Source: Eutypella sp. D-1
Lineage: Eukaryota; Ascomycota; Sordariomycetes; Xylariales; Diatrypaceae
NCBI GenBank assembly: GCA_023313575.1
Contig: JAJTTP010000014.1
Location: 248,001-312,000 of the forward strand
Length of the DNA: 64,000 bases
Direction: 5' to 3'
A model generated the notes under the pieces. It was not told the DNA's origin. It saw only the letters and a program-made list of their open reading frames with translations, and did no database searches. Numbering within the stretch: position 1 is the stretch's first letter; each line of letters begins with the position of its first letter. Below, piece by piece: positions 1 to 25,800 of this stretch. The translations under genes and the position numbers were made by a program.

Positions 1-3000
1 ACGCAGAATTGTCAGGAATTCGAATCGGAGTCGATGGATAAATGGTATGAGAAGATGTCAAGAGAAGGCCTTGCGTTTGGGCCTCATTTTCGATCAATCG
101 CCAAGTTGCACACTGATGGGAATCGAATACAAACAGTCGCCATTTGCGATGCGAAGCTCAATGCACCGATACCGGGACGTCCTCATCGCGCTCATAGCTC
201 ATTGCATGTAGTCGGACTTGATGCCTGTTTACAAGCTGCCCTTCTTAGTGATGCAGCAGGAGATATAAGTAGGCAACGAGCTTGGCTCCCTACATTTATT
301 TCCCAATGCCAAATGCGTCTTTTGGACACCAGTCCTAGTCTAGCGAACGCTACTATCCATGCACGCTCAGAGCGCTCAGGACTTTCCACGCTGAATGCAG
401 ACGCAAAGTTGTATGATGGGAGCGGAAGGAGCTTCATAGGCTTCAAAGGTGTGCGCTTCTCGTTATACACGGGTAAAATTGGTGTTACTCAGAGTTCCCA
501 AGCGTCACACGAAGACCGTCATCCCTGTCTTCGCGTTTGCTGGAAACCAGACATTCAGCGGCTTTATGAGAGCGCTGAAAATGACGTGAACATCTACGTC
601 AACGACTTCTCGAAAAGGCTAGACCCAGAGGTAGCGAACGATGAGCTATTGTGGATAGTCGGTGCCCTTCTTGATATTGCGGCACATAAAATGCCGGAAA
701 TGCGTGTTCTGGAACTCGAAAGCAGATACACGCCAAAACTTCAGAGCTTAGTGGATTCCCTTGACACGTCGAAGAGATTCAGACGTTATAAATCCTGGGA
801 TGTCGTCCCCATTGGCCATGAAGGCCAGCTTTCAAGGGCCAGCGAGAGTCGAAACACGTTTGATGTCATCCTTCATATTGAGGTAATGTACTCTTAAGAC
901 CCAGATAATTCAATTAGTACTAACATAGGCTTTCCTAGTCCACGTCATCAAAGGCCTCCTGGGAAAAGATTCCGAGTGAGATTGCCACTCTCCTTGGTGA
1001 TTGTGGTGTAGTCATCACTCAACAGACTGATATGGCCTTGGCTACCTTCCGCTCTGCCGGTTTCAACATGCTTAATATCAGGCAGAAGGTTCTCCTTGCT
1101 ACAACGTGGCAGGGATTGTCATTTTGGGAAGACAAAAGTGTTGTAATTGTGGTGAGTAATATATGCTGCTCTTCAGTACTGGGATCAAATCCTCTTATCA
1201 CTGATAATTTTAGCAGCATGCTAATGCCTCGGCTGTTGCATTACAACTTGCATCGTCTTTACAATTGTATTTCCGTAATAACGTTGGCATCGGCAATACT
1301 CATATAGTATCCTTGCATGATCTCAGCCAAGCGAATCTGCAAGAGAGAACGGTGTGCATCTCTTTGATAGAAATCGAGCACGATTTCCTCGCACGGATGA
1401 ATCAGTCAGAACTCGATCTTCTTCGACGCATTACAGACAGCGTGGCACATTTATTATGGCTGACAGACAAATCGTCATGTCACGGAAGTCCCAACACATC
1501 ACTAGTCAATGGGCTTTCCCGTGCTCTTATGCTGGAGCAGCCATCCTTGCGCTTTTCCGTGTTAGAAGTCAGCTCCACGGACGCATCGAAGTCTGGATTG
1601 ACGGCAATATGTAGAGATGTCTTGAAGACATTGAATCCACACTCTGCTACGGATGATAAGGAATTCGCTGAATTGAATGGCCTGATACATGTGAGCCGTT
1701 TCGTTCCTGAAACCAGAATGAACTCGTTATTTTGTCAGCGGCTTCAAGGATCGACACAGAACATGGCACTAGCTGAAGCGCAGCCAGTACGACTATCTAT
1801 CGGGAAAATAGGGATCACCGACACGATACATTTCAAGCAGCTTCGCGAGCCGCCCACGTCCCCCCAACCTGGATTTATAGATGTGCATGTTAAGGCCATT
1901 AGCCTTAACGCAAAGGACATCTACGTGCTAGCCGGCCAGACAGACACGCGCAAAGAAACGACTGCATTGGAATTCAGTGGAATAGTAACAGCTACCGGAC
2001 CAGGAGTCGATCACTTACGACCTGGAGACAGGGTAGTAGTGTTAGCCCCTAATCACTTCACTACGACGGAGCGCGTCCCAGCATGGGCAGCGCATAAGTT
2101 GCTTCCTTCAGAGAATTATACAGTGATGGCAACACTCCCAGTCGTTTATTCCACAGCTTTGCACGCTCTCCGTGACCGTGCGCATTTACAAGCAGGCGAG
2201 ACCGTTTTAATACACAGCGGGTCAGGCGCATTTGGAATCGCAGCCATTACTATCGCACAGCGGATTGGAGCGGTAGTATACACTACAGCTGGATCATATT
2301 CAAAACGTGCCTTCATATCGAACGAGCTCGGCGTCCCAGAACCCCATGTTTTCCACTCCCGCGATGAAACATTTGTCAAAGAAATCCACGCCGCCACAGG
2401 CGGGAAGGGGATTGACGTCATCGTTAATTCTCTTGGGGGAGATCTCATGCATGAAAGCTGGAGTTGCATAGCTAGCTTCGGGCGGTTTGTAGAGATAGGG
2501 AAGAGCGAGCTAGCTAATGGCGGTAAGCTGGATATGGATGTGTTCTCTCGGAACGCCACGTTTACGGCGTTTGATTTGAGCGACTTATTCTATCACGAGA
2601 CCAGGGCTCATCGGGATATCCTGTCCAAGTAAGTAGCAAACCCGTTGTAGATTTGACAAGCCGCGTCGTGTATACTGAGCCCTTGCCTCTAGTACAGTTC
2701 AGGAAGTACTGAGGATGTATCGTGCCGGGGAAATCAAGCCAGCACCAATCAAAACGTTCGACGTCGCGAATATTGGTCAGGCCTATCGCTGGTTCTCGTC
2801 GAAAGACAGAGTTGGGAAGATTGTCATCTCCCTCGAAAACCAATCGAGCCATGTACCTGTAAGTTCATTATTCCCTCGTCTGGCGATTACTATTGTTCGC
2901 CGAACACCTGTTGCGTAATTACCACCCGGCTCGTGATATGTTACCAACCACTTCAATTCATTGACGATTGCGTTAGGTTGCACCATCAAAGTACAACATG

Positions 3001-4206
3001 ACCTTTGACTCCAAAAAGGTGTATCTGCTCGTGGGGTGCCTAGGCGGCCTCGGACGAAGCCTTAGCCGTTGGATGATGCTGCGAGGCGCTCGTAACTTCG
3101 TGTTCCTTGGGAGATCAGGCTGCCGTAAACCTGAGGCCCGGAGGCTCGTCTCTCGTCTGCGTAATGCCGGGGCTACTGTTACGGTGGTCCAAGGTGATGT
3201 TTGCAGTCAAGATGACGTGGATATGGCCGTAGCTGCCTGCGAGCCATTGCCAATAGGTGGTGTTGTGCAAGCAGCAATGGGACTCAGTGAGGCCTTATTC
3301 AGCCACATGACGAGTGATGCCTGGCATAAGGCTATCCAGCCTAAATTGACGGGCTCCTGGAATCTACATACCGCCCTTGAGAGCCACGACGAGGCTTTGG
3401 ACTTCTTCTTACTGGCCTCATCTGTTTCTGGAAGTGTAGGTACTGCAACCGAAAGCAACTACTGCGCAGCCAACGCATTCCTCGATGCCTTTGCCCATTG
3501 GCGCCGCTCACAAAACAAACCTGCAGTGTCAATTGGCCTAGGGATGATATCAGAGGTCGGCTATCTGCACGAGAATCCCGAGATCGAGAGTTTGTTGTTG
3601 CGCAGGGGGGTCCAGCCATTGGATGAAGATGAGTTTCTTCAAATCATTGACATGGCGCTCGCGCCGGAGACAAACGAACCGGATAGGCCTGGAATGTCAC
3701 ATGTACTCACCGGACTAGAGCCCACCAGAGTCCACGAACTATTTTCTCGCGGCTACGACGTCAGTCACGCCACTATCCAAGACCCTCGAGCTAGCATTAT
3801 CGCGAGCGCGTTCAGGCATAAACGCAAGGAAAATAAACCCGAGGATGTTTCGGGGCGCCTTCATCTGGCTTTACCACCTTGGTTGAAAACTGCGCCGACG
3901 AATGTGGTCCGTATCTTAGCTGAAGAGATGGATGCCCCATCAATACTAGATGCCATTCTCCGCCTCACCAGGAAACAGTTTTCAACCTTGATTTTAGTAC
4001 CCCTGGAGCATATTGACGATAACAAGTCACTTTCTGGATTTGGAGTTGACAGCATGATTGCTGCCGAACTTCGGTCCTGGATCTGGACGGCCTTTAAGGT
4101 GGACATACCGTTTGTTGATATTCTTGGCCATCATAACTCATTACGCACACTTAGCCACACGATATCAAGGGAACTGGCACGAAGGGTAGCAGCACAAGTC
4201 GATTGA
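1..4206 (+). CDS. Highly reducing polyketide synthase, C-terminal part (DH-(MT)-ER-KR-ACP)
   Basis: Partial at the left window edge. Five exons fit one frame: 1-882, 939-1155, 1308-2628, 2693-2858 and 2977-4206, giving 1271 codons plus stop. Order: second half of the dehydratase (GPHF, then LDACLQ carrying the DH aspartate at about nt 220); a methyltransferase-like linker in which the SAM glycine motif is lost (LELESRYTPK where E.GAGTGG is expected); enoylreductase (GDRVVVLAP, HSGSGAFGIAA at nt 2210-2240); ketoreductase (LVGCLGGLGRSL at 3030-3065, catalytic NYCAANAF near 3460); and an ACP whose phosphopantetheine serine lies in GVDSM near 4042. No thioesterase follows, as is usual for fungal HR-PKS, so a partner would release the product. 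It assembles a reduced, probably not C-methylated polyketide. KS, AT and the DH start lie outside the window. The exon 2 donor (GTAATA) is less canonical than the others and was chosen because it alone keeps frame. Confidence 0.93.
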
Positions 4207-4515: not shown

Positions 4516-5319
4516 TTCTCACCACATCGACCAGCTCATAGCTTGGGTAGAGTTGAAGCGTATTCCTTATCAGATATAGGGAGCAACGTAGTAGTATTTA
4601 TGTGGTCTTTTCTACTATATATTATTCTAAGCATACATCGTACGCGTCCTGGCGTTGGGGCTTCCAGTGGTTGTAGGTCATGCGTTTAGCAGTGCTATCT
4701 ATATGACCGCTTTGAAAATACTGGCCACATTAAGTGACAAACTCGGGTTGCATACATGTAAATGGACACCAGTTTATTGAAATGGAGTATATGACTTGAT
4801 TGACTTGAAGGTTCAGCTATTCTAGATGGTGGGAAGACGTCCCTTATATACACATTGTGACGATGCCTCAGTCTTGACACTGAACTTCAACACAGTTCAC
4901 TCATGCGTGATATGCTTGACAGGCTTTTGACGTAGGCGACGGATCGAGTGCCAACACAGGTTTGAGGAACTGTTAATAGTGCTCTGGTACTCATCACAGA
5001 AGTGATTGAATAATCGTGGTTTATGAGATTTTAGAGGCCGAGTTAGCTGTGCTAAGGTGCACCGCTGGCACTTCTCATGGTTACGCGGCTATATCTCACT
5101 GGGACACAGGCAATGGAAATTACGGATTAAGTCAACGCTTGCTAGAATTTCAGACTTCGAGCGGGGATCCTACGATCGCCCTGCATTTCTAATCCACCAG
5201 TTGCTATCCTAGTCACTACCGCCGCATCGATCCTGCTCCATTCCTTTCGTAATCCTTGAAATTGAACACTTTGGCCAACGATAGATCACGCTTCAACCCA
5301 TGTGTTATAGACCTGACAT
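4516..5319. other. Intergenic, no gene seen
   Basis: Spacer between the PKS 3' side and the 3' end of the small secreted protein gene. Only short, unconvincing ORFs; no RNA gene or clear repeat recognised. Confidence 0.6.
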
Positions 5320-5814
5320 TTACGGGGTGAGGTCGAACTCAGTGGGGCCGACGTAAACCTGGTGAACGCCGGTGTTCTCACCCTGCATCTCGAGCTCGGA
5401 GGCCTGGATGATGTGCTTTCCGCTCTGGTCGGAGTTGGGGGTGACGGGCTGCGTGACGAAGACAGTGAGGACACCTTCGCCCTTGAAGATGCCGAAGGTG
5501 CGCGAGGTGTTCTCGCACTTGCCGTCGATGACCTCGGGAAGCTCGTTGCCGTTGTCGGCGGTAACCATGGCGGTGCAAGTCTGAGGATCGGTTTGCATGG
5601 TACCGGGCTGCAGCAGACCGAACTTGTACCTAAGGAGACGATTAGAGGACTGCTCTGCCAAAAGGGACAGGACTCGCGGTCCAATGACCTGTTGATATAC
5701 TTACACGCAGTTGGCGCTGTGGGGGATGCAGCTAGCCGAGAAGTCGGAGACCTTGAAGACGGCCTCGGCAGAGACACCGGCTGCGACAGCGAGGAGGGTA
5801 GCGGCGAACTTCAT
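5320..5814 (-). CDS. Small secreted protein, hypersensitive-response-inducing (MoHrip1-like) type
   Basis: Two exons, 5705-5814 and 5320-5629, joined through a GTAAGT...CTTAG intron, give 139 residues. The start at 5814 opens a signal peptide (MKFAATLLAVAAGVSA, cleavage about residue 16). The mature part begins VFKVSDFSASCIPHSANC, then has a second cysteine pair (TCTAM, GKCEN) and a beta-rich body with QPVTPNSDQSG. Length, the SDFSASCIPHS motif and four cysteines resemble fungal proteins annotated as hypersensitive response-inducing elicitors. That match is from memory and is not proof of elicitor activity. The upstream region has a TATATA box near 5963. The gene is strongly GC-biased compared with its AT-rich flanks and appears intact. 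Role: apoplastic or cell-surface protein, exact function unknown. Confidence 0.75.
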
Positions 5815-12228: not shown

Positions 12229-13702
12229 TCATTCCCTATACTTGACGCCACCGGTCGCCACCGGTAAATCTCGTAGCTTAAATGGCTCCTCAACCTGACG
12301 AAGGCTATTCTCAGAAGAATTACGAGCTGCGATACTGCGAAGCGAGAATTTGCTTGCGAATTTACGTAGATTTTGTACCGACACTTCGGTAAAGATAATG
12401 CGCAAAGTAGGTAGGCAAGCGCAGATAACCGCAACAGTGCATTCAAGGTGTGACCAGTACATGGTAGGGGAAGTTTCGTCTGTCCGTAAAACGGTTAATA
12501 TCCATCACGCACGTCGCATGCAACTGGCTATGGAGGGAGATATTTGCATAGGTAGGACATAGTGGTAAGGAATTCGGTATATTAGTTACTTACAAGTTAT
12601 GTCCGTAGCCTGGTTGAGATTTCTGCCTGCTTGGACAAACAATACAATGCGTGATGTGCTGATCCCTAGAACACTGCTTCATGTCAATATATTGACTTTA
12701 AGACGCCCTGCTCGCAAGGCCTTACTTCATAACCTCTTTCGTGGTTTCACTAGAGTAGGTACTCCATGCTGTTAAGAATCCAACTGACTCTGGATCTCTA
12801 TCTACATAGCGGAGAGAAAGTTGCACGGACCACAAAAGATTAACTTACAAGGCTCCCAGCAAAAAGATACCGCTTACAACGATCTTTTGCTTCGTCGGTA
12901 AATTAAGCTTCCACACAAGTGGCACCGGAATGGCAAGAATCATCACGTCCATGATTGTGTCAGAGATAGCACCGGTATAGAAGAGTGGAATAGGATCAAA
13001 GCAACGCGAACCTGGGGCTTGAGTCCAGAATGCATCAACAGACCAGCAAAGAAGAACGCTATTCCCCAGGCCGCGATAGCGATAAGCAAAATTCCAGTAA
13101 GGACAGAAAACCTAGAGCCACGAAAGATGCGACGATAGAAACACACAACTGAGAACTTAGTTGGCCCTAAAGACAGTGGTGAGAGCACGATGCTGAGGAA
13201 CTCCATCTAAGATTAAAACCTGTTAACTTTAGACTTTAGTAAGCAAACAGAGGAGTGACCGACCTTCATGAAGATGAGAAAACGGGGATCACTGAATTCA
13301 GGCAACCCCTTCTCATCTAAAGGCATGTGTCGTCCTAGGAGACCAGAAATGGCGGCTTGAAAACATTAGATCAACGCGAACGCATTTGAGTCAAAGCAAT
13401 ACTAGGATGGTACATGGCATTTATTTCAGCGTATTGTTATGTCGTATAATATGAACTAACCGATACTGTTTGTAACACCCATTGCAACAGCGAAGATCTG
13501 AGCTCAAGCCTGTTAGTAAGGTAAAGAAGGATACGGGCGTATATAATCTACTTACCAACCCAGGTAGGATCATGAAATCGTCTATTTCGAACTTGGCCTT
13601 TTGGAGACAGCGAACCCGAAAACGCAACAAGACGGCTATAACTGCAAGCACCGAGAAAGTGATAGAGATAATAACGATATTGGTACTGGGAGATAGCGCC
13701 AT
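12229..13702 (-). pseudogene. SAT4-family (fungal rhodopsin-like) integral membrane protein, frame broken by one deletion
   Basis: Six exons on the minus strand: 13556-13702, 13461-13497, 13264-13334, 12849-13206, 12594-12673 and 12229-12479. All introns have consensus borders and compatible phases. Order of family landmarks: FEIDDFMILPG, GVTNSIGRHMP, LSPLSLGPTKFSVVCFYRRIF, DPIPLFYTGAISDTIMDVM, PVPLVWKLNLP, ISTSRIVLFVQ, and CTVAVICACLPTLR at the end. Seven transmembrane helices are expected for the family. Inside exon 12849-13206 the frame changes between FFFAG and the downstream W-S-V-D-A-F-W-T frame. The residues normally between these helices are missing and the exon length is wrong by 1 modulo 3, so a short deletion of 3n+1 nt has disrupted an otherwise complete gene. 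A sequencing or assembly error is the alternative. Function in the family is unclear. Confidence 0.82.
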
Positions 13703-14947
13703 GGTAGCAATATTTCGGTGTGCAGAGCAATAGTTCACCCAATTACGGTAGATTGCAACAGAGATAGGTGAGATATAACGCCAAAGAGAAGCAGTCGATC
13801 CCACAACAGTCCTCTTTCCACAATGCATGAATGGAGGTTCAGCCTTGGTGATAAGCTTGAGGTTGGTCCAAGTTTATAGGAGTGCTTATCAGATTTAGCG
13901 ACTGGGGACAAAAGTACGCTGTAACTGGATTACTAGATCCACCCTTCCGTATAACGTAGCGTGGATGCGCTTATGATGTACGGTCCATATGATTACATGG
14001 TTTTGCGAACATGTTGGCTGTCCCTGAACTGCGCCGCTGGAGGCCGGTGGATAATTGACCACACATATTACATATTGCCCACAAATTATTCAGAGCTGTG
14101 CCACTCGTGTGATTCTTGCTAAAGCAGAATTCAGAATTTAAGGGGGCCGTTTAAAGGATAGAGCGGTCTGGTGACTTTAAAGGCCCTGCTGAATCAGGCT
14201 TCTGTTAGTGTGGGCTTACCTGCGGTAGGGACTTTTCTATAAGCAGGCTGCAGGGTAACAAAATGCCTTATGTGGCCCATCATCTGGCCCGTAAATTCCA
14301 ACCACAATAGTGCAACCGTTTTATAGGATCGCCATTGTGTAAGCAAATAATATTACTATATAAATGGTAGTTTAGATAGGCTATCCTATTTTATAGGCAT
14401 ATTTCAGCTCTTACTGTCTTCCATCGAACGATAATTGGTGCCATAGCCCCATATGGCCCCTCAACCACCCGGTCCCCCTCCCCTCTTTACCCGTTTGGAC
14501 CCCAACCCCATGTAATGTGGGTGGACTGTAATTATGAGGTAAAAAGGTTACATCGTTAAGAGTAAGCACTTCCGCCAGCAGAAAGTCATTGACACGAGAT
14601 CATTCACTTTGCCGCTTTTCTCTGGAGCAAATATTTAAAATGTAATCGTATGAATGTTATCTAGGCTAGGGCTGTCATGGACCCGGTTTCTATTTACGAT
14701 GCGGCACCTCCATAGAAAATGCCTTATCGCTTCGCAATAACAATGTGATGAAACATGCCCGTTCAATCCTATCGACTGGTTATGGCTAGAAACCACCCTC
14801 TTTCTCTTTAGCTCAAACACAAGCACACATCTAACACCAAGCTCCTCAGAAAGGAGGAACCTTTCATGTTCGCTTGAGTCCTTGAATTTCTGTTTCCTAA
14901 ATCTTTCTCCTCTTTGTAGCACACTATTCATCGATACACGAGTAGTC
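13703..14947. other. Spacer, no gene recognised; promoter of the first UstYa-like gene
   Basis: AT-rich (14330-14400 especially), no credible ORF on either strand apart from the antisense of the following gene. The last 300 bp are pyrimidine-rich (TTTCTCTTTAG, TTTCTCCTCTTTG), as in fungal promoters and leaders. Confidence 0.5.
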
Positions 14948-16010
14948 ATGAGAGACCAAGTGAACTTGGTGGGCCCTGAATCGTCGCCTTTCCTCATAAA
15001 TGAGGTAAATGGGCGAGACAGGGCCAATAACGAATTTGAGTCGACGTTAGAAGAAATTGCGGGGCCAAATCCCAGAAAGCTCTGGAGTAATATAACTGCA
15101 CCGCGATACGTATGGCTATTTCACGTTTTGTTCTTCGGGATGTATACGACTATCTTCATAATTGTTGCACGTTCGAAATTCGGTGGTCATCTACATTCCT
15201 ATGACGGTACTTGGTGTTGGTCTCCCATCTCTGATTGCTAATTACCCCATCATGGCATGACTGATCTGATATCACATGTAGCGCCGGCACAAGTTGCACT
15301 TGAATGGGAAGACCGACGTCTTGGTGCATACGTGCACCATGGTAATTATACCGGAGAGCCTTCATCTCTAATAGACGCGGCATGGAACGACCTATTAGAA
15401 GGCAAGAATATTTATGTCTGTGGACGTTATACACAACCTACAAAATAGACTAACAGGATGACATAGGAATTACGATCAAGATACTTCCTGATGAGTTGGA
15501 GCGCATCGGCATCTCATCGCTTGCACTTCGTGATGGCTCAGGATATTTCGGATCACTGGCGGTTTTCCACGAGCTTCATTGTGTAGTAAGTTCAACAGCT
15601 AGAGGAAGTCAAGGGACGGAATTGACCCTGGTATAGAAAGTTATGCGCCAGGGATTCTACAAGAACCATTACTGGAATAATTTGACGGAGTACCAACTCC
15701 GCCTAAAAGGCGAACATATAGGTAATACTCCTCTGTGATTGTTTCAATATATTCTAATCTATTGACAGAACACTGCCTGGAAGTGTTGCGGCTATCGTCT
15801 ATGTGCCGCGGCGATGTTAGTGTGATACCCTCTGTCTGGGAGTACGACGTTAGGGAGGGTGGCTCCGGCGAGCTTCTCGGGCCGTCAATCCGCGATGGAA
15901 GAGCTCTACATCGATGCGTGAAGTGGGACAAGCTTCACGAGTGGGCAAAATCGCGCCGTTTGGATCTATCTGATCCTACCTTGCTAGTTCCAGAATCCGA
16001 ACGTAGCTGA
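14948..16010 (+). CDS. UstYa-like oxidase/cyclase (DUF3328), type-II membrane protein
   Basis: Five exons: 14948-15206, 15282-15425, 15467-15585, 15637-15721 and 15769-16010, phases consistent, 196 residues. A single transmembrane helix follows a basic/acidic N-terminus (VWLFHVLFFGMYTTIFIIVA, residues about 60-80). The lumenal part begins APAQVALEWEDRR, the usual start of the DUF3328 fold, and carries both HxxHC copper-ligand motifs: HELHC (end of exon 3) and HIEHC (rebuilt across the exon 4/5 junction). Family members such as UstYa/UstYb crosslink Tyr of ribosomal peptides (ustiloxin, phomopsin, asperipin) or modify peptide natural products such as cyclochlorotine. It neighbours a second UstYa-like gene, a secreted peptide and a methyltransferase. 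Both HxxHC motifs and all splice sites are intact, so it should be functional. The exon 2 donor (GTTATA) is the least certain border. Confidence 0.88.
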
Positions 16011-16594
16011 GCTGCCTCACGCATTTCAACCTTTTCATGGCACCGTGATAGGACTGGATGGTTGTTTCAGATGAAGTTTTTGATCAGCATGATCGCTGCA
16101 TATTGTAAGGGTGGATAGGAATTGACAGTGACGTGTTGATAAATTGACTCGTTATATATTTACCGTCCTGTGACTACTCATATACCGAGACAATGAGAAC
16201 ATACGAGAAACGTGACGTGATATGAAACGTTTTGAAGAAATAAGGAACTCTCCATTGCGGTTACGATAGTTAATGCGGATTCTGCAAGTGGATAAGCAGA
16301 TAATAGTACACTGATCACTCCTTATGTTTCTACTTGGCGAAAACATATAGCATAGGCCATACGTATCTACCAGGAATCAGGGTCTCAACACTGTTATAGC
16401 ATACCACATTTTCAATATCACTCTGAAGCGACATTTAAATAATATCGAATCTCAAGGCGCGGCGGGAATGGTGCTTTTCCACGGTTTGGACGTGACGCCA
16501 AGCATGGAGTAATAATACTCTGAATTTTCTGAAGTATACTTTATATGAACTTAACACTTCTAATTGAGGAAGGCCGTTAATCTTTAACCCGCCA
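16011..16594. other. Convergent 3' region between the two UstYa-like genes
   Basis: AT-rich, no ORF with recognisable domains. Short repeats of ACATATAG/TTATAGCATA occur near 16345-16400; possibly 3' UTRs of the two convergent genes. Confidence 0.5.
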
Positions 16595-17428
16595 TCAATT
16601 ATGATCTCCGGGAGGCTCAAGTGTGTACTTAGTCACCCATCCTTTTATCTTCTCAAAGTTACGACACTTGTGCTCTGATCCAAATCCGGTTGCGCCCCCA
16701 AGCTCCTCTATAATAGGCTCTAGATTCGTATCGGCATGACACATGAGTGACTGGCGCAGGTAGTCGATGCAATGACGCACATGCGCCGGTCTTGTCATGT
16801 GAGAAGGCGGCTTCCTATCTACAGATGCCCAATACGAATGCCGAATTGCATTCTGTGATCATGGTTAACGAGGTTCGCGGGGAGGCCCATGAATTTAATA
16901 CTTACCAGACAGTGGAGTTGATGAAAGACAGCCACTCCGTGGGGTTTTGGGGAGATCGAAGGATGTTTAATGAAGCCATTGGCAGCTTGATCAACGTCAG
17001 TAAGAGGTCGATGCGACAATCAAGGCCTTTGTTCAATGGGCGAGACATACGTGGAATTATAGAATCCCACGGATCATGGGTCTGATTGTCTGGGCGTGCC
17101 GCAAAATGTCTCTGGTATTGGTATGTGACTTGAATATCGTTTGGTGGTGCTGATAGTAATTACGTTAGACTAATATCAAATGACTATTAGGACCTCGGGT
17201 AGGCGTAATGGTCTTACAAAACCAGTCGATTTCTGTGCGGGCGCGGTGGAAGTTTCTGCCCCAGATGAATCCCAGGGCCGTGGCAAGAACTAGAGCAAAG
17301 AGAATAGCAAAAACAGGTATAACGACATTATAGACTGCTGCAGTTCGGCGCCAGCATTTAACATCTCTGGACAGTCTAGGACTCTCGTCAGAGATAGGAA
17401 GGCGCTCGTACCTCGTTGTTTGTGCCAT
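16595..17428 (-). CDS. UstYa-like oxidase/cyclase (DUF3328), second copy
   Basis: Four exons: 17218-17428, 17051-17149, 16906-16985 and 16595-16852, phases consistent, 215 residues if started at the MAQTTRYERLP methionine. An in-frame ATG 10 codons upstream at 17458 is possible. N-terminus YERLP then a helix (YNVVIPVFAILFALVLATALGFIWG). The lumenal part reads PPNDIQVTYQYQRHF, DPWDSIIP, GFIKHP, then the first HxxHC (HQLHC) before the last intron and the second (HVRHC) in the last exon, followed by IDYLRQSLMCHADTNLEP. That tail is the classical DUF3328 ending, closer to cyclochlorotine-type members than the neighbour is. The two genes are convergent and clearly divergent in sequence, so they are probably non-redundant and each would act on a different position of the substrate. 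It shares a divergent 700-bp promoter region with the peptide gene at 18133. Confidence 0.9.
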
Positions 17429-18132
17429 TGGGCCTAGCTTGGTTGCAAATGAGATCATGAATGTCTACCAGATGATTCTCGAGTAGACTCGGGGATCGAA
17501 GAAGAGAAGATTCGGCTCGAGTCCTAAGTCATGGAAAAGTCAGTATGGGCTACGGGATATTTGCGGGGCCGCCGGTTATAGGAGATGGGGTGTCATAATC
17601 AGTACGCTCCGCCATCTGTGTGATTACAGAGGAGCTAGATCGACATCTGACTAGATATCATGACATGTAGGCTGACCGGCAGCTTCCGTCTTGTTAATAG
17701 TCACATAAACGTTTTATAGACGGCGCAGCAGCAGAAGAGCAAGGCAACCTGTAAGCAAGGCTGACAGTCTCCACGTTGCATCGTCGCGCTGTATGGACCC
17801 TTGGCCCTAAGAAGCTTGAGGATTAGTGTAGGTATGCTACATGCACGAAGCTGGGTCGAACAGTGCAGATAATCAAAATGGCATGGAGAACGACATGTAA
17901 TCATGATAAACTACTATATTCAGACAGAATCATCGGAGTCCAATCGCTATGAGGATTAGCATGCGACCAAGGGCAGTTGCAATAACGCTCTGCTCGGGTC
18001 AGGCATAAAAGGCGGCCTCTACCCAGTGTTCCCTGTCTCTATTCATTCTCTTTCGTAAAGTCAATGTTTATCATCCCCAAATCCATATTATAATACCTTT
18101 AAACATCTCGGTCGATATAGCACTCATACAAA
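17429..18132. promoter_or_regulatory. Divergent promoter region, UstYa-like gene and secreted peptide gene
   Basis: About 700 bp between divergent starts with no convincing gene. On the peptide side there is a TATA-like CATAAAA at 18004-18010 and a pyrimidine-rich leader (CCCTGTCTCTATTCATTCTC near 18030-18050). The element TATAGCACT at 18115-18123 recurs at 18957-18965 upstream of the methyltransferase. Inference only. Confidence 0.5.
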
Positions 18133-18374
18133 ATGCTGTACTCTCATCTCATCACCGCAGTCATGGCCTATTGCACAGTGGCAGCCGCGTTACCTCTGAA
18201 GCAAACCGTTAACAGTGAGATCCAGCGATTCCCCGCATTACTCACTAAAATAAACGTCAATGCTGACTGAACTTCGCTTTAGGTGAAGACTTGCTTTCTC
18301 GCCGCAGTATGGAGGATGCGGGCGATGACGCCTCCATTGTGTACGCAGCATGGGAGGCCCATGAGTCGGATTAG
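18133..18374 (+). CDS. Candidate RiPP precursor: 57-residue secreted peptide with dibasic site
   Basis: Exons 18133-18214 and 18283-18374 with a 68-nt intron (GTGAGA donor, GCTGAC branch site, TTTAG acceptor). Residues 1-20 form a signal peptide (MLYSHLITAVMAYCTVAAAL). A short linker PLKQTVNSEDLLS leads to RR at 34-35, a KEX2-type dibasic site. Cleavage there would release an acidic 22-residue tail ending SIVYAAWEAHESD, with one Tyr (48) and one Trp (51). Signal peptide, dibasic site and a Tyr followed by small residues are hallmarks of dikaritin precursors, and the gene lies beside two UstYa-like enzymes. Unlike ustiloxin or phomopsin precursors there is only one core-like segment. The promoter has a TATA-like box and CT-rich leader, and ACAAAATG is a good start context. 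Read without splicing, the frame stops after 46 residues and loses the dibasic site. Function is inferred from context and would be novel. Confidence 0.6.
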
Positions 18375-19310
18375 AAGCGCATGTCTCCATCACGGCAAGC
18401 AAAAGATCCACAACTCTACATTTGACAAGGGACCTGCAGACGTCGATTCGATAGTTGGAGGAGGATAAGGGGACTCAAGAGCATGTCGTTTCGATTGCTT
18501 TGGGGATAGTTTCGTGTATTGAATAAGGCATTTCATAGTCAAATACTTTTTCTATAACTTGAAGTAAGTTTTTGGTGATCTCTAGCAATTGGAGAATGAT
18601 GTAGATCAAGTGATTACTGTTAGTGGTGCTTTGCATTTTACCTGTTTGGACTAGGCCTTGCGCATCGGCCCCAAGGCCGTGTGATAGTGTCCCATACCTC
18701 TACTAAAGCAAAGCTAATAGGGAATGTCACGTCGCTTTTTAGTAATCGCTCGCCCTGAGGACATGAAAGTATCTGTTAATTATGGCCGTAATGGGCTGTG
18801 TCTCAGAATAGGACGACTAGGCAATGTGACCCCAAGCAGGCTGCAATTAGTTACTGTGTCGCTCCATGCAGGATGTCATCACATAAGCCTATACGAGCGC
18901 TAGGGACTGTAACATAGTGTAAATGTGCTAACAAAAATATTTAAGTGGGAAACGGTATAGCACTGCGGCGCAGTACGTAGCCTGCAGTCAAGGGAATGCA
19001 TGCAAGTCAATTATCAGAACCAACTGCATCACAGTCAATCACTCATTTATTTTATGGCCACACCCTCCAACGCTATGAGTATGTATCTGCCAGCCTCGGA
19101 CCTATGGGCTGATTGGAAACTGTACCCTTATGAATTATCGTGGGCGGGTATCTTCTTTTTTCACTTGTCCGACATGAACAAGGCTCGCTTCACCACTCGT
19201 CCCGCCAGCGTTTATACATGTGATCAAACAGCTGTCTTAACAGCAACCAAAGGCATACTCCCAGGTTTCCTCCATCATTACCGCCTTTACTCCTAACAAT
19301 TTCTACGTTC
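18375..19310. other. Spacer between peptide gene and methyltransferase
   Basis: No gene recognised. A 98-codon frame at 19000-19296 has no domain and ends 15 nt before the methyltransferase start, so it is more likely its leader. TATAGCACT at 18957-18965 matches an element before the peptide gene. Confidence 0.5.
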
Positions 19311-20591
19311 ATGATGACCCGTATATCAGAATTATCCGCCCGAATAGCCGCTAACACGGCGAAAGTAGACGATTATCTGTCTTCCCAATCACTCTCCACT
19401 CCGTCGTTTGATGAGCACGCAAATCTACAGTCACCGATTCCTAATGATGAGTCCGACATTGAAGCTGCCCGTCAGGCAGTTATAGAAGATACACTTGAGC
19501 TTCGTCAACTTATGCTTGGCCCGCGCGAGCACCTGTTCAGCTACCAGCCCACCCACCTCCTGAGTCAGATGGCAGTGGTACGCTTTGGTCTCGCCAAGAA
19601 AGTTCCTCTCGATGGTGAAATCAGCTTCGCTGAATTAGCTGCAACGGCCAACTTAGGAGTTGCGCACACTCGTAGGTTAGTGCGACACGCGATATCGCAG
19701 CGCATGTTCTGCGAGCCGCGCCCAGGAGTCGTCGCCCACAGCGCTGCCTCTCGCCTGCTGGCCCAGGATGCTGATGTAGCCGCCTGGGTACGCTGGTGTG
19801 CGGATGACTGCTGGCATGCTGCCTATCATACATGCGATGCGATGGCGCGATGGCCTGGATCCGAGGAGCCAGGCGAGACTGGATTCGCCGTCGCCAACCA
19901 CACGGAACTTGGGATGTTTGAATTCCTTGCTGCCCACCCGGAGCGCGCCGCTCGTTTTGCTACGGGCATGCGCTTATATGCATCGCGCCCTGACCTTGAT
20001 GTCCGCCACCTTGTTGAGGGTGCCGCCTGGGTTTGGGCCGATCTCCCCACGGGTGCTACGGTGGTCGATGTAGGTGGTTCACATGGGGAAGCGGCAATGG
20101 CTTTGGCGCGCGCCCATCCTACTATGAGCCTCAATGTCCAGGATATCGACGAGGCAACCATCCGCGCGGCGGAGGCGCGCAAGCCGGCTGACGGTACCGG
20201 TGCCCGCGTGCGCTTCATGACGCACGATTTCTTCACCGAGCAGCCCGTGCGCGGCGCCGACGCGTACCTGCTCCGCGCCTGTCTCCATAACTGGTCCGAT
20301 AAGTACGCTGTGCGTGTTCTGCGCGCGCTGATCCCGGCTCTGAAGCCTGGCGCGCGCGTGGTGCTGAACGAGGTCGTTGTGCCGGGTCCTGAGGACCTGC
20401 CGCCCGGCTTAGCGCCGACAGTGCGGGCCGGCGACCTCAACATGACAATGCTATTTAATGCTGGTGATCGCGAGATGGGTGACTGGGAACGCGTATTTGA
20501 AATGGCGAGTCCAGGTTTCCAGTTTGAGGGTGGGAGACAACCCCCGGGCTCGGGGTTATGGGTTTTGGTGGCTGTCTGGAAGGGGGTCTAA
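19311..20591 (+). CDS. SAM-dependent O-methyltransferase (COMT-like, fungal secondary-metabolite type)
   Basis: Uninterrupted 426-residue frame. N-terminal winged-helix dimerisation part (about residues 60-170: LSQMAVVRFGLAKKVPL, FAELAATANLGVAHTRRLVRHA). Rossmann SAM domain with motif I VVDVGGSHGEAA (about 250-261), acidic adenosine-binding VQDIDEAT, and the catalytic-histidine motif LHNWSDKYAVRVL (about 324). Ends ...LWVLVAVWKGV as in the family. Length is typical. It transfers a methyl group to a hydroxyl, usually a phenol, of a small molecule. Here the nearest candidate substrate is the tyrosine-containing product of the adjacent UstYa cluster, or else the PKS product (inference). Cytosolic, no signal peptide. 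It is markedly more GC-rich than the UstYa genes and has no intron, so it may have a separate origin. Confidence 0.93.
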   Translation: MMTRISELSARIAANTAKVDDYLSSQSLSTPSFDEHANLQSPIPNDESDIEAARQAVIEDTLELRQLMLGPREHLFSYQPTHLLSQMAVVRFGLAKKVPLDGEISFAELAATANLGVAHTRRLVRHAISQRMFCEPRPGVVAHSAASRLLAQDADVAAWVRWCADDCWHAAYHTCDAMARWPGSEEPGETGFAVANHTELGMFEFLAAHPERAARFATGMRLYASRPDLDVRHLVEGAAWVWADLPTGATVVDVGGSHGEAAMALARAHPTMSLNVQDIDEATIRAAEARKPADGTGARVRFMTHDFFTEQPVRGADAYLLRACLHNWSDKYAVRVLRALIPALKPGARVVLNEVVVPGPEDLPPGLAPTVRAGDLNMTMLFNAGDREMGDWERVFEMASPGFQFEGGRQPPGSGLWVLVAVWKGV

Positions 20592-20887: not shown

Positions 20888-22863
20888 TCAGCGATCCTGC
20901 CGCATTTCCCGTAACTCCCACCCGCCATTACTACCCTCCAAACGCATAGTGATCTTGCCTGGCTTCACTTCTGTATTCTCCCGGTTAAGTGCCGCCCTCA
21001 ACTTGTCTCGGACGTCCGGGTCGATGGAATGGGCTAGGGTGGCCACCACGTCGGCCTTCCAGGGCTGCAGCTGTAGGTTTGAGGTCTGACGGATAGTGAG
21101 CGCGACGAAGATACATCCCGCTAGGGTCGTGGCTATTGGGAGCGTAATATATTCCCACTTCACGTATATGTAAACCGACCACTTCTCTGCCACACCCATC
21201 GCACGGTCAAGCCCGCCACTCCGCGCCCAGTTCGTAAGGCTGTGCGCCAGCGACTCCGTCGTGGTCTTGGCCGCGTTGCTTGGGGCATCCAGGAGAGAGC
21301 CCGCGACTATTGGGACGAAGGGGCCGACGTCTCCTGTAGGCGGGAGCGGCCACGTGACTGGGTCTTTGAACAGATAGCGCTTAATGGCCCGGACCGTGCT
21401 GCCGATGGTACTTTGGCTGACGTTGAAGCTGAGGTTCGCGTCCGGCGGCAGCCCAGCTTCCGCGGCTTCCTCTGGGGGGATCTGTAGTCGGAGGTCGGTG
21501 CGGTAGAAATCGCCAAATTCCGTGTAAAGAGACCGGTTGTTGTATTCTTCGAACTGTGTAAATTTTGCGGCGCTGGGAGGCATGGATCCCTCTCCACTGG
21601 GCTGATATGAATCCTTGTCTCGATTTGCCCAGGTCCCGAGAACCGTCTGGTTATCGGTCCCACTCGTCACGTTAAACTTATATGCCTGGGTGCATAGCCA
21701 GAGCGCACATTCGGTGGCCGTGACCTGGGCGTCTTTCCAGTCTGTCCGGTTTGCTTCGTAGTCTTCTGACTGGATGATGCCATAGGCCAGCAGCATCGTA
21801 TCCAGGTGCTGAAATGAAACAGTGTTGCCTGGATTCGTCTCGTCGTCCGCCACTTTAAAAGCCCGGAACACGCCATTTTTGTCTTTATTCGTCAATGAAA
21901 CATAGGGTAAACTATGCGAAGTGTAATCTCCGCCATCGAGCATCATCATTCCGTCGTGTTGAAGAGTTGATACGGAACCATCCTTGCTGTACTCCGTCTT
22001 CCGCACGAGGCTGTTCGTCACGTCATTACACGTACTGCAAACGGCCAACGATGTAAAGGGCTCCCAAGTGCAATTCGTAGTCCTGCAGTTATACATAGAG
22101 GGTTCCCCCTGGTTACCCTGGATGGGTTGGAGACCTAATAATAGGTGTGCGGTGAGACCCGGGCCGGGATCCGAAGTGAAGGATCCCATCGCCAGGCTGC
22201 TGTTATCTGGAAGCAGAACCTGTACTAGCGCAGAGGTCATCTCGTTGTAAGAGCCAAGGGCAAGGTTATTGCTGGTGGCAACCGAAGGCATCTCCGTCGG
22301 GTCCACATCCATCCTACCGTCATAGCGAATAATTGCCTGGAAGAACGGATCGAACCCTAGCAGAAATAGCGTGACTACAGCTCCGAGCACAGCCCAGTGG
22401 CTTTTGGAGAATTGAATATGTTAGCTATTGCCTGTGGTACGCGCAATTTCGAAGCCTCTTACCGGATATGCAGCCACATAACGAGCCCGAGGCTTCCCAA
22501 GGGGCCCCGGCTAGCTTCCTCGAACTTCTCGAAAGCGGAGAGCCCGTCGGGGCGGGATTTAAACCAGTTCCATTTGGCCTGGGCGAGGCAAGAGCCGACC
22601 GCGAACGCCAGCGGTGCCCGCACTAACGCGGACAGAATCGATACAATGGTGTTTAGGGAGAGGGAGAAATGCCAGGAGTCGAGCGGCTTCCCGTTGTAGA
22701 AGATGAGGACCACGATGATGGCCACCATGGAACAAAGGCTGATTACCGAGCCGGCGATCTCTGAATTCCAATTGTACAGCCTTTCGCGGCGTTTTGACGG
22801 CCTCGGGGGAAGATCGTCAGGGACCGGGGCTAGCCCTATATGTTCCTGAGATTTGCTGTCCAT
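20888..22863 (-). CDS. DUF3176 integral membrane protein
   Basis: Two exons, 22463-22863 and 20888-22400 (intron GTAAGA...AAAAG), 637 residues. The N-terminus has RRERLYNWNSEIAGSVISL followed by hydrophobic helices (MVAIIVVLIFYNG; SILSALVRAPLAFAVG), the fixed opening of DUF3176 proteins, with KWNWF and SRGPLGSL. A third helix opens exon 2 (HWAVLGAVVTLFLLGFDPFFQAI). A long Cys-containing extracellular region carries NCRTTNCTWEPFTSLAVCSTC, and a final helix (ITLPIATTLAGCIFVALTI) precedes a short cytosolic tail. Function unknown in the family. These genes are frequent in accessory and cluster-rich regions of fungi. No frame damage is seen. Whether it belongs to the UstYa cluster cannot be told. 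Confidence 0.88.
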
Positions 22864-25800
22864 CTTGTTGTCGCGGTTGGACTTGTGGCTTCAAGGCTCC
22901 CTCTTGGCTTTGATAGCAGAGGAAATTTCCCTCAACGCTGCCTCCAGAGCCGCCAGTTAATAGCAAGTAGTTTTGGGCGGTCTTGGGATGGTTGTCCATA
23001 GGAAGAATAAAGACAAAAACATTAACGTTCCACATAGAAGGTTTGAGAAACCCGTGACACGTGGTGGTCCATGCCACCACTAGGCCCTGCATAATGTGGG
23101 CTGCTTCACACCGCGAAGCCTTCATCCCCGGGCGCGTTTTTCCCCTGGTGAGTTTCCCATCACCATTCTATTTATATAGTACCGCGGAGACCCATGTCTT
23201 GAATGAAATCGCAACACGTAGAAATTGGAATAGAATAGATGAAAACGCGACGAAAAAGCATTGCCATATTCTCAATCCCGTGTCTCCACTGCAGGTGCTT
23301 CTGCGAGGCACTATGGAGTTCACTTTTCGCTAATTGTCCAGGCCATTGACCGCTCGCTATCGGCCAGTCCGAAGAATCCAAATCTTGCGTCCCATCCATC
23401 GCCTGGGACGGCTCTGCCGGCACAACAACTGACTAGTCTATGTTCGGCGTTAACTATCAGGTAAGGAGGGATTGGATTTTTTTTTTTGGCCGAAAAAAAG
23501 AGGGTAGCTTTTCTGGTAGGGCTGTTGACAACCTATAGTGGACTGGGGAATCCCTGGTTGTTCCTTTGGACATGATAATATCAAACCAGCTAGTCACGGC
23601 GACAATCCTTCCGAATCAGTATACCTGGAAAACAGAAACCCAAATACTAGCGCAATGCATCAATGGGACCTCGGATTATGCCTCTACTATCTTTGCCGAG
23701 AAATAGGGGCTGATCCTCGGTAGTTGGTATAAGGTTGGGGATCTGAGGCTGATAATCAGAGCTTGAGAACCAGAACTTGCCATCACACTAATTTTTGCGC
23801 TGTAGAAGGTATCCATGGATACCATGCAACCATGCCCCTGTGCTAAGACGCTAACTACGCAACTAACTTAGGCTGTCGGTACTTGAGAAAACTACTACTA
23901 TTAGTACACAGTAGCGCTGACTGGGGTGTGGGCGTTATCTATCAGTGCCCTACCCTTTTAAACAGACCACTGCATACACACTAAGTATTTCATATTTTCA
24001 CTGTAACTACCTAGGTGGATAGGTATCTAGGCAGTAGGTAAGTAGGTATTGGTAGTTAAGAGGAGCGGACCCAGACCCCAAGCTCCCTCTTTCAATGGAA
24101 GGTCTGACGGTCAGGGAAGAGACCGCAGAATTTGGACAATCCGTTACTCCCGTGGTGCATTGTCTTTTCTGCTCGGGATACCGATGTATCGGGACTAGAC
24201 AGTATCTGGATCTGTGAATTGCAGCATGGCCCCACGATTACCGTGCTTCTTAAGGCCAAGACCCGCAAGCGCGTGAGAAAAAGGTTTCACAAAGCTGGCC
24301 ATTCGCTGAAAAGTAGTTAGTATGATGGCTACACCTCGTGTATTTTTGCCTTGATATGGAAATTCACGGAAACCCATAGTCTAGACGAAGCTGCGTATAC
24401 CGAAGCAGCCTGGTTCGTGTGCCTAATGTCCCGCGACCATTGTATATTCTTTCGGCTATGAAGTTTAAGATGGAGAACTACACAAGCGCCTGCCTTTTCG
24501 CCCCCAGCCCCACGCGCTTGATAGGGCGCGGGCGGCTGTAAGCAAGACATTAGCGGAGAAGGATCAGCGTTCGCTGGAGAAGGCTCTTCCAAGAGGGACT
24601 CTAGATTGCCTCGTAAGACATGAAGACACAATGGTGCAAGCACTGGATCGCCTGTCCAGATATAGACCAGCATTTTTAAGTCTCGAACGATTCTCGTTGC
24701 AAATGTAGTCTATGCTCAGATGAGTCGGTCTCTTTATAGCGGGTCACAATGTAGGAGACTATCCTCCACTCAGCCACGCCCACGTTGAACCAGCGAGAAC
24801 TCTTTCCCACCTTTTCCCAATACCAGTAATACGTACAACTTCTTCGCGATATCGGTTTCCTTCGGCCTCTAAATGATGCCGCAACCTTTGCTATGCCGTA
24901 AAAGATCTAGGCTCTTTATAGACGACGTCATACCGCTCTCGCGAGAGACTTCTCGGTCCCTTGTATGTCCAGTGGCAACAATATCGACTCGGATAGCCGG
25001 AAATGAGCATACCGTCATGTACACAGCTGGCTGAACCCCCCTCCCAGTTCTTCCTCAACGCTCCCATGACAATATAGCCTAAGCGTACAGATATCGTCTC
25101 TACTGCTGACTGTGTTAGTACTAGCGTAACTGGTGTTCAGGAGTTTAAATCCCATCCACACATGCCCCCTATATTAAGAAAGAGGCATCGAAACGAGCTC
25201 AATGTGACCTCGAAAGGCCTACAGTGTAAGGGTACGGGGCTTGATATCAGGGAGCACGTGAGCCAACGGGAACTGCAGGGTTTGACCCTTCTATAAAGAA
25301 ATCCCGGGTTCATTATGCACATGTCGCTGAATGGACAAGCAGAAAAATAACTGAGGGATGAGTCTTTCAAATACAGTAGATAGTGACCGGCCGTCCTCTA
25401 CATACTCAGACCTTAATACGCTAATAGCTAAAGTGAGAGGTCGAAGGCCGGATTTGGAGATAGACACGAAGGCTTTCTGGACTTCAGCTCCTTCATTTCA
25501 CACATTGATATATGAACGTAGTAAATCGAGGGTAGTATGCAATCTTGCTTTCGACGATGGTCGAATGGCTATGCTAGTCTCTACGCTTAGGTATGTTCCA
25601 CTAGCCGCAGCTCGTCCTCGAGGCAGCTCGGGAGGCAGCTCGGGAGGCTTGCTACTCACAGGCCGACGACATGAGAATGCTTGGCTACCTGGCATGGCTT
25701 TCCCCGGGCCATCCTATCGTGGAATACTACAGACCTATCTGCCCTTATATGAGCAGAGAACAGCGTGGGATTGTGTTCGATGGTCAGCGTCTTAGTCATC

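Follow-up and report, generated by a model that had tools for sequence, protein, structure and literature searches.

A candidate UstYa-dependent peptide locus with a single acidic tyrosine unit in Eutypella sp. D-1

The window considered here is a stretch of 64,000 nucleotides of Eutypella sp. D-1 (C6:248001-312000 in a genome of 48.5 Mb; C6 is GenBank contig JAJTTP010000014.1), which is fungal as judged from its own genes, and the system in question is a group of four genes within it: two for UstYa-family (DUF3328/PF11807) proteins, here UstYa-1 and UstYa-2, one for a predicted secreted peptide of 57 residues, and one for a COMT-like O-methyltransferase. We suggest that the small peptide is the substrate of both UstYa proteins, in a pathway to a ribosomally synthesized and post-translationally modified peptide (RiPP). 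A preliminary description of this DNA had recognised the same four genes; the genes proved real, and their layout had been misread.

UstYa-1 lies on the plus strand at 14948-16010 and encodes 277 residues in five exons (14948-15215, 15282-15401, 15467-15585, 15637-15721 and 15769-16010), its second intron being of the GC-AG type; UstYa-2, on the minus strand at 17428-16595, encodes 215 residues in four (17428-17218, 17149-17051, 16985-16906 and 16852-16595). The first splice models of both genes were replaced where relatives pointed to a better junction: two junctions of UstYa-1 were chosen to match relatives P0002-P0004, and the first junction of UstYa-2 was set by the DWFSPP stretch of relatives P0020-P0022. 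The refined models are free of internal stops. The first-pass models scored 137.5 and 99.2 bits against the PF11807 profile (cut-off 25), and the refined proteins each carry two HxxHC motifs, at residues 164 and 196 of UstYa-1 and 125 and 154 of UstYa-2, in alignment columns that are invariant across 19 and 26 sequences, respectively. On score and motifs together both proteins are members of the family, and they belong to clearly different DUF3328 types. Each has one strongly hydrophobic N-terminal stretch (residues 55-73 and 35-53), by hydropathy and not by a membrane predictor, and with that qualification the earlier claim of two intact genes, each with a membrane helix and a pair of HxxHC motifs, stands. 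The two genes had also been said to flank and face the peptide gene. Instead they adjoin each other and converge, their stops 584 bp apart, and the peptide gene lies outside the pair, divergent from UstYa-2 with 704 bp from ATG to ATG (17429..18132, the shared upstream region, to which no strand is assigned); all of this falls within the segment that had been singled out.

The pair is conserved. Searches for relatives, with the first-pass models as queries, gave 18 hits among 1030 candidates for UstYa-1 and 102 among 168 for UstYa-2, the closest relatives belonging to Xylaria, other Xylariales and Sordariales. In three species one hit from each list lies on a contig of equal size, and it is from this equal base count that we take the two hits to share one contig. 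The case is strong in Xylaria bambusicola, where P0002 (61%, the best UstYa-1 hit) and P0021 (62%, the second UstYa-2 hit) come from a contig of 858,701 bases and bear the consecutive locus tags F5B22DRAFT_644816 and F5B22DRAFT_644815. Rhypophila sp. PSN 637 has P0004 (50%) and P0022 (52%) on 131,605 bases, and Xylaria grammica has P0016, at only 34%, and P0029, at 49%, on 569,172 bases. Two further relatives have no partner in the other list: P0003 of X. telfairii, at 72% over 68% of the UstYa-1 query, and P0020 of Hypoxylon sp., the best UstYa-2 hit at 53%. The hit pairs in Xylaria and Rhypophila indicate that the pair has been kept in both Xylariales and Sordariales, and they bear out the UstYa-UstYa part of the arrangement that the preliminary description had proposed to look for in related genomes.

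Structure prediction was run on P0002, the X. bambusicola orthologue of UstYa-1, and gave five models, the best with a mean predicted local distance difference test score of 78.6 and a predicted template modelling score of 0.62, with two of the others at 60.5 and 51.5. In the predicted fold a long helix at the N-terminus is accompanied by two more, 147-162 and 173-196, which bear H150/H153/C154 and H182/H185/C186, and in this it fits the plan described for the copper enzyme CctR (PMC12435403; this and the other sources given by PMC number are cited for the parts available). No solved relative was found by sequence at E 1 or better, nor by fold at E 0.001 or better, among 60 fold matches at E 10 or better.

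The peptide gene (18133-18374, plus strand) consists of two predicted exons, 18133-18214 and 18283-18374, around a canonical-looking intron of 68 bp at 18215-18282 (GTGAGA..CTGAC..TTTAG), exactly as first described, and its spliced translation is MLYSHLITAVMAYCTVAAALPLKQTVNSEDLLSRRSMEDAGDDASIVYAAWEAHESD. The product has a signal-peptide-like start, recognised on inspection and with a simple scripted rule and not by a dedicated predictor, a single SRR site of the Kex2 type, and a 22-residue acidic unit, SMEDAGDDASIVYAAWEAHESD, with a net charge of -7, in which we take I46-V47-Y48-A49-A50-W51 to be the core. The start codon stands in the context CAAAATG, and the GC content at third codon positions (GC3) is 0.62, over 58 codons, against a local base composition of 0.456. 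There is one unit only, where dikaritin precursors have repeated cores, and a scan for repeats over the window and 22 further stretches brought up only frames on contigs C13 and C5, to which we return below. A search for homologues of the precursor returned P0001 as its single hit. This sequence of 45 aa, on a contig of 510 bases (source ena), corresponds to exon 1 plus the unspliced intron and differs from the read-through of the window at 3 of 45 positions.

How far could chance explain such a peptide? We scanned spliced and unspliced frames for a Tyr together with a signal peptide (by the simple rule) and a KR or RR site further along, both in the window and in 220 kb of other stretches (180 kb around the ten other UstYa loci of the genome and 40 kb flanking the window). 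This gave 8 loci for the 64-kb window and 10 for the 220 kb, genuine ones included, or about one per 8 kb and one per 22 kb; these features are so common that alone they prove little, and as sufficient evidence they were rejected. What makes this peptide unusual is its acidic Tyr unit. When the unit was required to have a net charge of -3 or lower, one locus was left in the window, that of the 57-residue peptide, and five in the 220 kb, all within the 180 kb around UstYa loci. Among 2000 simulated regions of 7.2 kb (second-order Markov), 14 held such a locus at -3 or lower and one at -7 or lower; a first-order model gave a mean of 0.003 loci at -3 or lower over 300 regions, and the same 284 kb reversed held seven loci of any charge and no acidic one. 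Since the threshold was picked after the peptide had been seen, these control figures favour it. That the same acidic rule then picked out repeat precursors at three other UstYa loci is fairer support.

The five acidic hits elsewhere in the genome comprise three repeat precursors, so that repeat-type precursors stand at 3 of the 10 other UstYa loci, one non-repeat candidate, and one hit on contig C45, just upstream of a UstYa match, which reads by eye as the beginning of this UstYa gene. The first repeat precursor (C5:737336-737758, plus strand) has five acidic Tyr units and lies about 1.6 kb from a UstYa match; the second (C13:132759-133198, minus strand) has five units of the QYSPAALRIAE type and lies about 1.4 kb from one; the third (C28:4594-4851, minus strand) has two in-frame acidic units ending in VIYPDY and VIYHDY, with a UstYa match about 2 kb away, and by eye there appears to be a third unit of this kind after them, in a different reading frame. 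The non-repeat candidate (C1:954431-954788, minus strand) is a frame that looks secreted and has both dibasic sites and acidic Tyr units; the best UstYa match of the genome is 2.8 kb away. This candidate is ambiguous, since condensation domains of a nonribosomal peptide synthetase (NRPS) start about 5 kb from that match. The 22-residue unit of the window is near the length of the repeat units on C5 and C13 (about 18-23 residues including the dibasic site). Its best alignment is to the C28 precursor, SMEDAGDDASIVY with TVSSADEDAKVIY, at a score of 30 that 70 of 3000 shuffles equalled, a weak figure given that four precursors were compared and only this one beat most shuffles; after the aligned stretch the window unit continues with AAW and the C28 unit with PDY. 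For the precursors on C13, C1 and C5, 1008, 1423 and 1755 of 3000 shuffles did as well. A common origin of this unit and the C28 precursor is thus no more than suggested.

The methyltransferase gene (19311-20591, plus strand) starts 936 bp past the peptide gene and is a single exon for 426 residues; the COMT-like assignment made earlier is borne out by a Methyltransf_2 match of 70.4 bits. Its GC3 of 0.61 is close to the 0.62 of the peptide gene, the UstYa genes having 0.49 and 0.46. We consider it possible, if somewhat doubtful, that this gene belongs to the locus, and O-methylation of the product is a guess from its position. The enzyme has no strongly hydrophobic stretch and would therefore work in the cytosol, either following the lumenal steps or separately from them. 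Directly after it lies a gene for a DUF3176 membrane protein (20888-22890, minus strand), with the match in the frame 22459-22890 and none in 20888-22420; several other frames near the cluster had no match in a Pfam search.

We propose that these genes form a UstYa-dependent RiPP locus where UstYa-1 and UstYa-2 work on a small, secreted, single-unit peptide, a reading to which we would give about two chances in three. Beyond what the preliminary description offered, it draws on the conserved UstYa pair, on the similar repeat precursors at UstYa genes of the same genome, and on the acidic Tyr unit. The precursor would enter the secretory pathway and be cleaved by Kex2 after SRR, and the catalytic domains of UstYa-1 and UstYa-2 would face the interior of secretory organelles, which is where a precursor carrying a signal peptide and an SRR site would come across enzymes of the CctR type. 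The pair may then use copper and O2 to make an oxidative cross-link around I46-V-Y-A-A-W51, joining Tyr48 with Trp51, or with Ile46 or Ala50, and the simplest guess, given that the locus has no tyrosinase match, is that oxidation links Tyr48 directly. The acidic flanks would be trimmed by peptidases encoded elsewhere, and a later cytosolic step may fall to the O-methyltransferase. By calculation, [M+H]+ would be 2368.951 for the linear unit released by Kex2 and 2366.935 after loss of 2 H; a core trimmed to IVYAAW would give 722.387 as a linear peptide, 720.372 once cross-linked, and 734.387 with both the cross-link and an added CH2.

Several points weigh against this proposal. Beside the commonness of signal peptide, dibasic site and Tyr, the hindsight in the charge threshold and the weak alignment to C28, the C-terminus of the peptide has no second dibasic site, and P0001, covering exon 1 and the intron only, shows that the locus exists elsewhere and offers nothing to set beside the core. 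Adjacency is the one tie of the methyltransferase to the locus. No tyrosinase was found in the locus, the nearest PF00264 match being at C6:226252-227210, about 36 kb from UstYa-1 and past a polyketide synthase (PKS); an S41 peptidase had no match on the contig and one in the genome (C3), in an exon-by-exon search that a weak match may escape. No exact word of 8 to 11 bases is common to the three upstream regions, and co-regulation through a common promoter motif was accordingly dropped. The PKS itself, which ends 10.7 kb before UstYa-1, supplies another possible client.

That PKS, of the highly reducing type, reaches with its 3' part into the window (1..4206, plus strand). Its matches run from about C6:244432 to 252206 and comprise ketosynthase, acyltransferase, dehydratase, enoylreductase-type, ketoreductase and acyl carrier protein domains, with many changes of reading frame that are candidate introns. 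It had been overlooked in the preliminary description, which was right that no NRPS is nearby: among the best-scoring candidates, none of the genome's 22 condensation domain matches is on this contig. Further upstream (C6:218000-248000) lie matches to a GMC oxidoreductase, a P450 and a terpene synthase, and frames that by eye resemble a transporter and a rhodopsin-type protein; the one piece of the transporter-like frame that was tested had no Pfam match. COMT-like O-methyltransferases are frequent in polyketide clusters. It is conceivable, then, that the UstYa pair, perhaps with the methyltransferase, tailors the polyketide of this PKS and that the 57-residue peptide is an unrelated secreted protein. 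UstYa proteins are known from polyketide as well as NRPS clusters (PMC12048977), and for that reason we keep this explanation in play, although we think it unlikely. Against it, the 10.7 kb between PKS and UstYa-1 hold a gene for a fungal-rhodopsin-type membrane protein (12845..13206, minus strand), a small, by eye secreted-looking frame of perhaps two exons (5286-5810, minus strand; the piece tested had no Pfam match), and stretches without a Pfam match, the frame 13421-13873 among them. All three PF11807 matches on the contig, of 21 in the genome, belong to the UstYa pair, and the genome has acidic Tyr units next to other UstYa genes as well.

Less likely again is that the pair serves a peptide or small molecule encoded elsewhere and that the 57-mer is genuine but unrelated, for example an effector or a signal. 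Small secreted peptides are common in fungi, and P0001, as the sole precursor hit, leaves the core without a comparison; against this, the peptide gene lies 704 bp from UstYa-2 and its Tyr unit is of the same build as those beside other UstYa genes of the genome. That the 57-mer is a chance open frame and not a gene is very improbable, however frequent frames with the three basic features may be, given the rarity of the full set in simulated DNA and its absence from reversed DNA, the raised GC3, though over few codons, the canonical-looking intron and the start context.

Returning to the RiPP proposal, we would add a broader and decidedly speculative one, which we hold to be rather less probable than its negation: single-unit, acid-flanked UstYa precursors may be an overlooked class of fungal RiPPs, and in this locus two copper oxidases, conserved together and drawn from different DUF3328 clades, would cross-link Ile-Val-Tyr-Ala-Ala-Trp, plausibly from Tyr to Trp (i/i+3), without a tyrosinase. 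Such a class would be invisible to repeat-based miners. The main survey of fungal Kex2 precursors seeks repeated cores, as its available text describes (PMC7329392), and if the one-unit reading is true, part of the UstYa RiPP repertoire would have been missed. Searching by the simple rule of a signal peptide, a dibasic site and an acidic Tyr unit no more than 3 kb from UstYa recovered the repeat precursors at three of ten other UstYa loci and one non-repeat candidate, and a substrate of 57 residues is small enough for a direct test of DUF3328 enzyme action and of the residues joined.

How does the locus compare with known systems? CctR and other DUF3328 enzymes of the cyclochlorotine cluster likewise combine a membrane helix with an HxxHC(x)nHxxHC dicopper motif; CctR has been shown to be a dicopper enzyme whose metal is bound by the HxxHC motifs, with a catalytic domain that its authors assign to the lumenal side of Golgi, endosome or vacuole membranes (PMC12435403). 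CctR, however, hydroxylates a non-ribosomal peptide, and here there is no condensation domain match on the contig. The Kex2-processed repeat proteins (KEPs) with DUF3328 neighbours (Umemura 2020, PMC7329392) share the signal peptide, the dibasic site and the adjoining DUF3328 genes, but are defined there by at least three tandem repeats of at least eight residues between dibasic sites, so that the single-unit gene described here would escape a KEP listing. Epichloecyclins, from the GigA precursor, are alike in having a Kex2-type precursor and Ile before Tyr in the core (PMC9233826), and unlike in their repeats, whereas the present precursor has one unit with Trp three residues past Tyr. A survey of Hypoxylaceae and Xylaria hypoxylon sought RiPPs by similarity to known precursors and, in the part available, leaves the true diversity beyond its judgement (PMC8403587). 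In the literature searched, mostly without subscription journals and hence no proof of absence, we recognised no proven single-unit UstYa RiPP.

The closest comparison is with the dikaritins (ustiloxin, phomopsin and asperipin-2a), whose UstYa-family oxidases are encoded next to a secreted precursor of the Kex2 type that carries Tyr in its core, and the window holds, by prediction, the same combination of UstYa genes, secreted precursor, Kex2-type site and core Tyr. Dikaritin precursors typically carry multiple cores (PMC9233826), of the Tyr-x-Ile-x motif in the ustiloxin and phomopsin type (PMC7329392), where this one has a single Ile-Val-Tyr-Ala-Ala-Trp; their clusters include an S41 peptidase and, for ustiloxin and phomopsin, a tyrosinase, neither of which has a match in this locus; and their known methylation is N-terminal (PMC11285071), while the methyltransferase here is of the O-methylating COMT type. 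On precursor, core and missing enzymes the locus is not a dikaritin member, and the "dikaritin-like pathway with a new core" of the preliminary description is partly supported: it holds in the sense of "works like", with a UstYa-dependent RiPP as the best reading, and fails as a claim of membership. Adjoining DUF3328 pairs have already served to pick out RiPP clusters, in Sclerotinia sclerotiorum (PMC6941272). We regard the present locus as a credible new variant of the UstYa RiPP locus with a candidate substrate beside it.

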